Part shown: one piece after another, positions 18,684 to 30,759 of the stretch
How the letters are laid out: every line of letters starts with the position of its first letter
How positions within the stretch are numbered: position 1 is the first letter of the stretch
Source of the DNA: Candidatus Ruthia magnifica str. Cm (Calyptogena magnifica)
GTDB lineage: Bacteria; Pseudomonadota; Gammaproteobacteria; PS1; Pseudothioglobaceae
Length of the DNA stretch: 64,000 nucleotides
Direction of reading: 5' to 3'
Assembly (NCBI RefSeq): GCF_000015105.1
Contig: NC_008610.1
Span: forward strand, 124,001-188,000
Translations under genes and position numbers: made by a program
The notes under the pieces: generated by a model
The model's database searches: none
Told to the model about the DNA's origin: nothing
The model's input: only the letters and a program-made list of their open reading frames with translations

Positions 18684-19856
18684 CTAAATGTTAGATATTT
18701 TTCCGATACGTTCAATAGCGCATAATTTATTATCAATGTAATACATTTTTAATCGATTCCGTTCCCATGGCGGGATATTGGCTTCTTGTAAGACTTTTTT
18801 TAGTGATTGAGTGTGCGTTTTTCCTAGTAATTTAATACGTTGGCCTTCTTGTCGATAACGAATTGAAAAATTTTTAAAATTCTTAAGCTCTTTATAAAAT
18901 GGACAAAACGCGTTTTTTCTTGGTAAGGTCTTATTGATGAAATATAATTCATTTTGGTAACGTCTAATCTCATACTTATCCCAACATACTAAAGGGTTGG
19001 TATTTTCTTTTGTGTATAGCAGTTCAATAATTTGATGCATTATTTTATCGCTAGGTGTTAAAAAGTTAAGCAAATTTAAATGATGACGAAGAACATTTTT
19101 AATTCTGTGGGTTTCAAGTTTGATAAGTCTATTTGTATCGATGCGATTGGCATTGTTGATAATGTGATATGTATTCATATCAATATCGGCTAATTCGCGT
19201 ATTAGTTTTAAGGCTTCTGATTGGTGTTTTGCGCTTCTAGCAAGTGTTCTTGTTAAATTTTTATATGCACCAGATAATTTAGGTAGAATTTCTAAACGCA
19301 AGAAATTACGCATAAAATTAGTATTTTTGTTGCTATCATCTTCTATCCAGTTTAGTTTGTTATTTTTAGCATAATCAATAATTTGAAACTTACTAATTGT
19401 TAAAAAAGGACGATAGTGAATACCCATGCCTAAAGGTTTTTCTTTAGGCATGGCGGCTAATCCTTTGATGCCACTACCACGAAACAATTGTAAAAGTAGG
19501 GTTTCTGCTTGGTCGTTCTGATGGTGTGCTGTGCAAAGCACTTCATTTTTTTTTAATGAGTTAGATAAAGAATGATAGCGCTTTTTACGTGTATTTTCTT
19601 CGATATTAGATGTATTATTAAAATATAAATCAATACTTAAATAGGTGATATTAAGGCTTAAACATAGCTTTTCGCAAAACTTATTCCATTCGTTACAATA
19701 TTGAGATAAATGATGGTTGTAATGAATGACTCTTGTTTTATTGGGATAGTGCGTGTTTAAATAATACAACAGTACAACAGAATCAATGCCACCACTAAGA
19801 CCAAGGACAATTTGTTTATCCTTAAGAAATAAATCTTTAGTCTTTAAATTTTCCAA
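18684..19856 (-). CDS. tilS: tRNA(Ile)-lysidine synthetase
   Basis: Modifies C34 of tRNA-Ile2(CAU) to lysidine so that it reads AUA instead of AUG. N-type ATP pyrophosphatase: PP-loop [16 protein letters not shown] near residue 17, then [20 protein letters not shown] and [10 protein letters not shown], followed by the TilS-specific C-terminal domain ([13 protein letters not shown]...IPPWERNRL). 390 residues, shorter than E. coli (432). Its start overlaps the accA end by 20 bases. The substrate tRNA is at 3740-3816. Confidence 0.95.
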
Positions 19857-20787
19857 AATTTAAGAGTTTTTCTTGTCTGTTTTGTAACAATTGCTCTATT
19901 GGTAGTTGTTTAATTTCATTGAGTTGTTGTATTAATGCCTCTTTTAGTAGCACTTTTGCTTGCGAAGGGTCGCGGTGAATGCCACCTAACGGTTCATCAA
20001 TAATGATGTCAATTAGCCCATTTTCTTTAAGATGGGCTGAGGTTAGTTTTAGAGATTCCGCCGCAAGATTAGCCTTGGTTGCATCTTTATACAAAATGGA
20101 TGCACAGCCTTCTGGGGAAATCACGGAGTAAATACTATATTTAAACATCATGATTATATCTGCAACGCCAATTGCTAATGCACCACCAGAGCCGCCTTCA
20201 CCAATAACTACCGAGATAATGGGTGTTGCAAGGGTTGACATTTCAAATAGATTTTTAGCAATGGCCTCACTTTGACCTCGTTCTTCAGCGCCAATACCTG
20301 GGTAAGCACCAGGAGTATCAATAAAAGTAATAATAGGCATTGAGAATTTTTCAGACAGCTTCATTAAACGTAAGGCCTTACGATAGCCTTCAGGCCTAGG
20401 CATGCCAAAATTGTATTTAAGTTTTTCTTGAGTGGTTCGTCCTTTTTGTTGGCCAATAAACATCACTGGCTGGGCATCTAATCTAGCAATGCCACCAATA
20501 ATAGCATGGTCATCACCATAGATACGATCACCGTGTAATTCAGTAAACTCATCAAATACATGAGAAATATAATCAAGTGTATAAAGGCGTTTTGGATGGC
20601 GCGCTAGTTGAGATATTTGCCAGTCGCTTAAAGAGGAAAAGATTTTTTTGGTTAAAGCATTACTCTTGATTTTAAGCGCCCCCATTTCATCAACAATATC
20701 CGCTTTGTCTTTAATATTATCAAGCGCTTGTATTTTTTCCTCTAATTCGACAATGGGTTGTTCAAAATCAAGATAATCTAAGTTCAT
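19837..20787 (-). CDS. accA: Acetyl-CoA carboxylase carboxyltransferase subunit alpha
   Basis: Alpha half of the carboxyltransferase that makes malonyl-CoA for fatty acid synthesis; partner AccD is outside the window. 316 residues, as usual. Seen: [14 protein letters not shown] at the N-terminus, [60 protein letters not shown] and [15 protein letters not shown]. It is upstream of tilS, an order common in gammaproteobacteria. Confidence 0.97.
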
Positions 20788-20919
20788 ACTCTAGTTTAAA
20801 ATTCGTTTATATGTCAATGTTTAAAATTATAGCAGAAACACTGACATTTTTATCTTTTACCACTTTTATATTTGTTGTTTGAATGTATTTGAGTTAGTTT
20901 TGTAATGAATTGATAGACA

Positions 20920-21021
20920 TTTTTTACTAAAAAGCAACATTAATATGTTTTTTGTTTTATGAGAAAATTCTTATTTATGGTTAAAAAATAAAACATATTA
21001 ATGTTGCTTTTTAGTAAAAAA
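20920..21021. repeat. Perfect 32-bp inverted repeat with 38-base loop
   Basis: Left arm 20920-20951 and right arm 20990-21021 are exact reverse complements over 32 bases; the arms contain ACTAAAAAGCAACATTAATA and its complement. The loop (20952-20989) is AT-rich. It lies between divergent accA and ccoS, with the right arm ending just before the ccoS ribosome site (AAGGAAGG at 21021-21028). It would form a long hairpin in RNA or a cruciform in DNA. It could be a mobile-element relic or a regulatory structure. Confidence 0.85.
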
Positions 21022-21031
21022 AGGAAGGAAG

Positions 21032-21172
21032 ATGAATGTAATTTGTTGGTTAATTCCCAGTATGATTTTTGTTGGCGTTGTTCTTGTTATTCTTTTAATG
21101 ATAAGCGTTAAGAACGGTCAGTTTGATGATTTAGAAGGAGAGGGACAACGCATTTTATTTGACGAAGAGTAG
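21032..21172 (+). CDS. ccoS: cbb3-type cytochrome oxidase assembly protein CcoS
   Basis: A 46-residue membrane protein. Members of this family are required for heme and copper insertion into cbb3-type oxidase. Start ATG 21032 follows a strong AAGGAAGG site. One transmembrane helix (SMIFVGVVLVILLMIS, about residues 10-25) is followed by the family pattern NGQFDDLEGEGQRILFDEE. It is normally found next to ccoGHI; here it is isolated, so the rest of the cco cluster must be elsewhere or the gene has moved. It suggests the organism uses a high-affinity terminal oxidase. Confidence 0.85.
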   Translation: MNVICWLIPSMIFVGVVLVILLMISVKNGQFDDLEGEGQRILFDEE

Positions 21173-21277
21173 ACAAGCTTGGCATTTAAAAGAATAAGGT
21201 TGATAACTCATTTTTTTGATAGAAAATTTGTATCTAAAGATTTTAGAAAAAACAAGGCAAATGAAAAGAGGAAAAAG

Positions 21278-21955
21278 ATGGCTAAAAATATAATTGACGG
21301 TCTATTTGGTAAATCACCCATTAGCCCATTACAAAAACATATGACACAAGTGCATTCATGCATTTTAGAACTCAACGGCTTTATGGTTGCTATCCATGTT
21401 CAAAATTGGGCACAAGCTGAAAAAATTAGAAGCGATATCGGTGCCAAAGAAGGTGAAGCGGATATTCTTAAAAAGAAGTTACGTTTGAGCTTGCCCTCAA
21501 CATTTATGATGCCTTTTTCACGCAGAGATTTGCTTGATTTATTGCTGATTCAAGACTCTATTGCCAACATTACTAAGGATGTTTCTGGTTTGATGATTAA
21601 TCGTAAGATGGCTTTGCCAGATGAGATTTTTGATGATGTGATAGAATTAACCAAGGTTTGTATCAAAACATCATCTATGGCGCTTAAAGCTGTTAATGAA
21701 TTGGATGAGTTGTTAGAAACTGCATTTGGTAGTCGTGAACGTAAGGTTATTGGCTCTATTATTAAAGATGTGAATAAACTTGAAAGCAAATCTGATAAAA
21801 TTCAGTATGAAATTCGTGCTAAATTATTTCCATTAGAGTCTAGTTTACCACCTGTTGATGTTATGTTTTATTATCGTGCTGTGGAATGGTTGGGTGAGCT
21901 TGCAGATGCTGCGCAAAAAGTTGGCTCAAGACTAGAAGTGCTACTAGCAAGATAA
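21278..21955 (+). CDS. DUF47 / PhoU-like phosphate transport regulator
   Basis: 225-residue helical protein of the TIGR00153/DUF47 family, distantly related to PhoU, which commonly sits upstream of Pit transporters and is thought to modulate them. Start ATG 21278 follows AGAGGAAAAAG; an upstream in-frame start at 21179 would add 33 basic residues unlike the family. Typical stretches are LFGKSPISPLQKHM, SRRDLLDLLLIQDSIAN and FYYRAVEWLGELADAAQ. The Pit gene follows after 10 bases, so they form one operon. Confidence 0.88.
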   Translation: MAKNIIDGLFGKSPISPLQKHMTQVHSCILELNGFMVAIHVQNWAQAEKIRSDIGAKEGEADILKKKLRLSLPSTFMMPFSRRDLLDLLLIQDSIANITKDVSGLMINRKMALPDEIFDDVIELTKVCIKTSSMALKAVNELDELLETAFGSRERKVIGSIIKDVNKLESKSDKIQYEIRAKLFPLESSLPPVDVMFYYRAVEWLGELADAAQKVGSRLEVLLAR

Positions 21956-29689: not shown

Positions 29690-30476
29690 AGGCACTTCAA
29701 GGTCATTACGAAGCCTTAATCTCAAAGAAAACCTATTTTTAAGATACAGAATAAATTATCAAATAAAGTAAGGTATTACAAGCAAGACAAGCATATAGAC
29801 TTTCCTCTTTGGGGTGTAAAATATTACGAATGTAATGAATATATGACAGCCAATTGCTCAACAGGTAGAAATATAAAAGCATCCATATTGTAGATGTAAG
29901 AATAATAACTGCTCCTGTGGGAATAAAAGTATTAAAAGAGAATCTATAGAGAGTGATTTTTCTGAATTATTGAAGAGTGCGACTGCAAAAGCCTTTAATA
30001 GAGCTTTTAAAGGCAATCACTCGAGAACTTTATAATGCTAGAGTTGGGAAGTTACAGATAGAGCGTAAGACTTATACAAAGGAAATATCAAAGTTAGATA
30101 AAGATATTTCTAATTTGGTTGATAGACTGAAGGAGTATTACAGAAAAGGAAGAATATAGAAATACTCTACAAAATAAACATTCATTAATGGATAAGAGAG
30201 ATTAATTTTGGAATCGCATTGAATGGTGTGCTAGATTTTATTAGCAATCCTTATGAAGCCTGGATAAATGGAGATTTGATATAAAAGTTACGAATACAAA
30301 AACTTGTATTCGTTAGACCTCTGAAGTATAGCAAGTTAAAAGGATTTTGAACCGCCGAAATGTTCCTGCCGTTCAGTATTACAGGGGCTTCTAACGGGTC
30401 TAAATCAAGTTTGGTGGAGATGGCGGGAATTGAACCCGCGTCCGAAAACTTTCAAACAAGAAGTCTACATGCTTAG
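29690..30476 (+). pseudogene. Serine recombinase (large resolvase) C-terminal remnant running into ssrA
   Basis: C-terminal half of a large serine recombinase, broken by frameshifts and stops; the catalytic N-terminal domain is gone. In order: GHYEALISKKTYF, then (frame +1) KIQNKLSNKVRYYKQDKHID and FPLWGVKYYECNEYMTANCS, then YCRCKNNNCSCGNKSIKRE (a recombinase zinc ribbon with its four cysteines scattered over frames), the coiled-coil KLQIERKTYTKEISKLDKDI, FGIALNGVLDFISNPYEAW and the end FLPFSITGASNGSKSSLVE. The frame closes at TAG 30474-30476, inside the antisense of tmRNA. This is the layout expected when such an enzyme inserts its element at the 3' end of ssrA. Confidence 0.85.
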
Positions 30477-30759
30477 CTTGGTCTATTTTAGTTAGCTGCC
30501 TTACTGCCCGACCATCAGGGATGTAAGTAGCGATTTCCAACAAGTTTTAACCGAATTACGTGAAAAAAATAATTCTAGCGAGTCTGTGAGCGACCGTCAT
30601 CCTAAAAGTACAGACAACTTTTAAGCGACGGTTAGCTATGCAGCTAAAGCGTAGTTGTTTTCGTTTGCAACTATTTTTTTAAAGCGTATTTTACGAGTTG
30701 TCTTTATCCTCGGCATGCGTCCTTGAGATCCAACTCCTCGTCGAAGCCATGTCATCCCC
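30412..30759 (-). ncRNA. ssrA: Transfer-messenger RNA (tmRNA)
   Basis: 348-nt one-piece tmRNA that rescues stalled ribosomes. The 5' end GGGGATGACATGGCTTCGACG pairs with the 3' end CATCTCC ACCA (encoded CCA). The T-arm GGGTTCAATTCCCGCC is present near 30430. The tag-coding part (about 30630-30665) reads ANENNYALAA then TAG, close to the E. coli tag ANDENYALAA. It lies 22 bases downstream of tyrS on the same strand. Its 3' end overlaps, antisense, the last 65 bases of the recombinase pseudogene. Confidence 0.96.

Follow-up and report, generated by a model that had tools for sequence, protein, structure and literature searches.

The accA and ccoS genes of Candidatus Ruthia magnifica are divergent neighbours in the stretch of DNA that was analysed (the window, 64,000 nucleotides), and the 244-nt intergenic space between them holds a long perfect inverted repeat (Table 1). 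The genome is a single contig of 1,160,782 bases with a G+C content of 33.8% (window and 20 sampled stretches), and excerpts of an earlier account give 1.16 Mb, 34.0% G+C and a lost recA gene of which a remnant is left (PMC3202245). The identity of ccoS was confirmed by a match to the Pfam family FixS (PF03597, E = 5.9e-17), and the purine-rich stretch AGGAAGGA in front of it is likely to be its ribosome-binding site. The accA/ccoS intergenic region was found in 12/12 genomes of the genus, and it is shorter here than in 9 of the 11 relatives (range 227-280). The element ATTATAGCA at window positions 20826-20834 (minus strand TGCTATAAT), about 40 bases before accA, is invariant in the alignment of all 12 genomes and resembles an extended -10 promoter for accA. 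Elsewhere in the window lies a tmRNA gene (30412-30759, minus strand, 190.9 bits).

Table 1. Features of the accA/ccoS interval and its flanking genes, in window coordinates.
Feature	Position	Strand	Basis or remark
accA, divergent neighbour of ccoS	19837..20787	-	start 20787
Left arm, 32 nt exact	20920..20951	+	exact inverted-repeat search
Outer left arm, apparently rewritten from right arm	20920..20943	+	alignment, 24-mer and template-switch tests
Loop, 38 nt	20952..20989	+	orthologous, same orientation as in relatives
Right arm, 32 nt exact	20990..21021	+	recognisable in relatives (alignment)
Purine-rich stretch AGGAAGGA	21022..21029	+	likely ribosome-binding site of ccoS, inference
ccoS, FixS family, 46 aa	21032..21172	+	Pfam match

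The inverted repeat in front of ccoS is real and far beyond chance. The original prediction of two perfect 32-bp arms around a 38-base loop held at the positions listed in Table 1, and when two mismatches were allowed the arms extended to 40 nt with 38/40 positions paired (20920-20959 and 20982-21021). A scan of the window for template switches, in which alignments of the relatives covered 20-52 kb of the 64 kb, yielded six inverted repeats with exact arms of at least 12 nt, among which the ccoS repeat alone was long; it was the longest exact inverted repeat of the window (loop of up to 150), the runner-up having arms of 17 nt. The 24-base arm core was absent from all of 100 dinucleotide shuffles of the window at up to 3 mismatches, which agreed with the earlier judgement that such arms exceed chance by far. 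The RNA of 20910-21060 was predicted to fold at -45.5 kcal/mol (z -7.8), and shuffles as good were 0/200. The right arm had also been expected to reach the ribosome site of ccoS, and it does end at 21021, abutting AGGAAGGA and standing 10 bases ahead of the ccoS ATG (21032). In a sample of 464 of the 1161 kb of the genome, made up of 20 stretches of 20 kb and the window, exact arms of at least 32 nt were found in two repeats, namely the ccoS repeat and a MITE-like element.

This MITE-like element lies outside the window at C1:303301-303460 (L134:3301-3460) and is an inverted repeat of 160 bp whose outer arms are exact over 35 nt. Of 60 genomes of the bacterial family, 25 gave matches to it (26 in G007, 23 in G024), and an empty site was seen in G003 and G011, where the flank matches overlap by 4 bases, which suggests a target duplication. 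The ccoS repeat is also a long inverted repeat of the same genome, and its shape alone, together with the existence of such a family elsewhere in the genome, speaks for the earlier suggestion that it is a non-autonomous mobile repeat of MITE type. Unlike the 160-bp element, however, it is not multi-copy in the bacterial family and has no empty site, and neither several copies nor an insertion with target duplication relative to an empty site was found for it. A whole-genome search for a repeat family returned, at up to 3 mismatches of the arm core, the two arms and one weak third place with 3 mismatches, so the repeat is present as a single copy. Moreover, the relatives carry the loop and the right arm at the orthologous position, this genome shows no insertion or extra length relative to them, and arm matches numbered 0 in viral contigs and none in phages. 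The suggestion of a mobile repeat was therefore not borne out, and we regard a MITE-like origin as highly improbable.

Watson-Crick pairs join 32/32 positions of the arms here, as against 8-18 of 32 in the 11 relatives, which add 4-8 G-U pairs. Loop and right arm could be traced through the relatives in the alignment, the orientation of the loop is unchanged, so that it has not been inverted, and a deletion within the loop is common to this genome and G006. Close to the loop, this genome has CAT in its right arm, where 6/11 relatives have GGC and the other five GAC or GGT, and CAT complements the left arm. Among the 12 genomes of the genus, with this species represented by one sequence, the perfect palindrome occurs in this one alone, which bears out the recent origin that had been proposed for the arms. 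Palindromes can cause cloning errors, and the species is known here from that one sequence, both of which would suit a sequencing or assembly artefact; however, the two flanks are as in the relatives and the order of the loop is retained, unlike in a simple chimera, and there is very little probability that the repeat arose in this way.

The left arm is where this genome departs from its relatives. A block, AAAYGAGTAAGATTYGAT, was found exactly once per genome in 11/11 relatives (up to 1 mismatch) and 0 times in this genome, and it occupies in the relatives the position of the outer left arm (for example G006:C1:1175865-1175882). The outer left arm of 23-24 nt replaces about 29 nt of G006, the conserved block included. 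When up to 3 mismatches were allowed over 34 loci (L011-L044), matches to the block were confined to seven genus loci (L012, L015, L016, L018, L020, L030 and L031), with one extra 3-mismatch place in L030. In some relatives the block contains a possible mini-frame, ATGAGTAAGATTTGA. Aligned with G006, the left arm shows 7 substitutions and lacks 6 bases, and the right arm shows 6 substitutions, as against a mean of 2.3 and a maximum of 5 in 32-nt background windows.

We compared the outer left arm with both strands of the relatives. The 24-mer matched the minus strand of their right arm at 19-23 of 24 positions in 10/11 relatives, the exception being G008 (15 of 24), whereas the best match anywhere on their plus strand reached 15-16 of 24. 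Among 5000 shuffles, the observed score was reached by 0 for G006, G010, G009, G011 and G007, by 1 for G003, and by 15-33 for G002, G001, G004 and G005. In 10/11 relatives the new arm was thus closer to the reverse-complemented right arm than to the orthologous stretch, and in blastn alignments with G011, G010, G009 and G003 the left arm fell on the minus strand of their right arm. A template-switch score with free jumps was poorly controlled (gains to 28.5 among 110 genome pairs) and was replaced by a test against shuffled sources. In this test the reverse-complement source beat 300/300 shuffled sources for G010, G003, G011 and G007, 298/300 for G006 and 296/300 for G009; the alignment was weaker for G001 and G002, in which 10/300 and 17/300 shuffles reached it, and for G004 (257/300), G005 (278/300) and G008 (138/300) it did not stand out from the shuffles.

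A repeat that is perfect here and imperfect in the relatives has the pattern of a quasipalindrome template switch, and we presume, with a probability of about 0.8, that the ccoS repeat is a lineage-private and recent correction of a quasipalindrome by template switching during replication. The starting state would have been an imperfect inverted repeat (quasipalindrome) between accA and ccoS, and inside it, on the line leading to this genome, the replication machinery would have switched template. The outer right arm would then have been copied over the outer left arm, so that about 29 bases were overwritten by about 24, and a second correction near the loop, in the opposite direction, would have turned the right arm to CAT, the outcome being a perfect 32-bp palindrome in which the old loop is kept. 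Some correction would have run left to right, because the CAT of the right arm is what the left arm demands, and a single simple event is insufficient, both arms having changed. One or two events of template switching, as we infer them, account for why the changes are clustered and complementary and why the block is gone, and the resulting palindrome would be nearly neutral.

The quasipalindrome could also have become perfect step by step, through separate point mutations and small indels that selection for pairing may have favoured. The relatives already form part of the pairs, as given above, and the left arm also aligns linearly with a blastn identity of 0.72-0.81 in 6/7 relatives; because this linear alignment is possible, the probability of the template switch was not set higher. 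However, the stepwise route, measured against G006, needs 7 substitutions and indels in the left arm and 6 differences in the right arm, with all 32 pairs coming out complementary, and the relatives show no selection for pairing, which makes it quite improbable.

A different reading is that a selected RNA hairpin controls ccoS, in which case a transcript from left of 20920 would fold and limit or protect the mRNA. The very stable fold of the site and the stop of the stem right at AGGAAGGA are in line with this reading, as is the presence of a hairpin in the interval of G001, G004, G005 and G008, which is moderate and different from the ccoS repeat (plus-strand fold z of -2.3 to -3.9; GATGTACT...AGTACAT in most of them). 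However, the plus-strand fold z of the interval, -8.65 in this genome, was -1.6 to +0.4 in the other seven relatives, no better than shuffles, and in these Watson-Crick pairs form at 15-18 of 32 positions. A scan of 20600-21400 gave no consensus promoter left of the stem on the plus strand, and a ccoS transcript begun in or after the left arm would form no RNA stem. The repeat site had no match to an Rfam family, the relatives have not kept the stem with compensating changes, and since the perfect stem is unshared there is nothing in their arms to covary. The idea that the stem blocks translation of ccoS is thus unsupported by conservation, we found no evidence for the active maintenance of the arms that had been suggested, and control of ccoS by a selected hairpin appears unlikely. 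A transcript that begins left of 20920 might give the stem a lineage-specific effect on ccoS. A terminator was rejected: 20600-21400 holds no consensus terminator, and the site lies between two divergent start codons. With a different hairpin in four of the relatives, the accA/ccoS interval may be a spot where palindromes tend to form.

The branch of this genome carries 0.070 substitutions per site (about 2.9 kb of flanking sequence), and at that rate about 4.5 changes are expected in the 64 arm bases over the whole branch. Because none of the arm changes breaks pairing, we estimate that the last correction probably dates from the later portion of the branch, assuming that there is no constraint. 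The recA gene is present here as a fragment with stops, and the family cut-off for recA was passed in 7/12 genomes. For SbcC there was no match here at E 0.001 and 0/12 genomes were above the cut-off, which is strict (1/14 control genomes passes), so that its absence here is based on the missing match at E 0.001; an exonuclease I domain was present in 12/12 genomes. Such repeats could persist where hairpins are no longer cut. The recA-bearing relatives are without the repeat, and so are G001, G004, G005 and G008, which had no recA match, so that these genomes show no correlation between recA and the repeat.

Previous work, according to excerpts of one study, has established template switching at quasipalindromes in E. 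coli, which renders them perfect (PMC7202029). Like the mutations described there (Ripley model), the change in front of ccoS would have copied the opposite arm and turned an imperfect repeat into a perfect one; unlike them, it is recognised by comparison of species and was not observed with a reporter, and its rewritten stretch is about 24 nt with both arms changed. Monttinen and Loytynoja (2022) described, in the excerpted parts of their study, mutation patterns fitting template switches that create and repair the stems of RNA genes (PMC8794818). As with those stems, a nearby reverse-complement copy would give a perfect stem that is recognised against relatives; the microRNA and rRNA genes covered in those parts differ from the ccoS repeat, which is bacterial, intergenic and without an Rfam match. 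The mutation type is therefore already known, and the ccoS repeat, of which our literature searches found no report, is a clear new instance of it.

The ccoS repeat would provide a clear natural case of a long perfect hairpin in a reduced bacterial genome that came about with no mobile element and no visible selection for pairing, and it cautions that a perfect hairpin beside a start codon need not be a regulator. There is a slim chance that the template switch exchanged a genus-conserved upstream element for a hairpin and so rewired ccoS expression in essentially one step; if this were true, a cbb3 oxidase assembly gene would be affected in a symbiont that lacks RecA and in which no SbcC was seen. 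More interesting than the stem may be that the conserved block is lost here; since every other genome of the genus keeps this block, its role can be tested.
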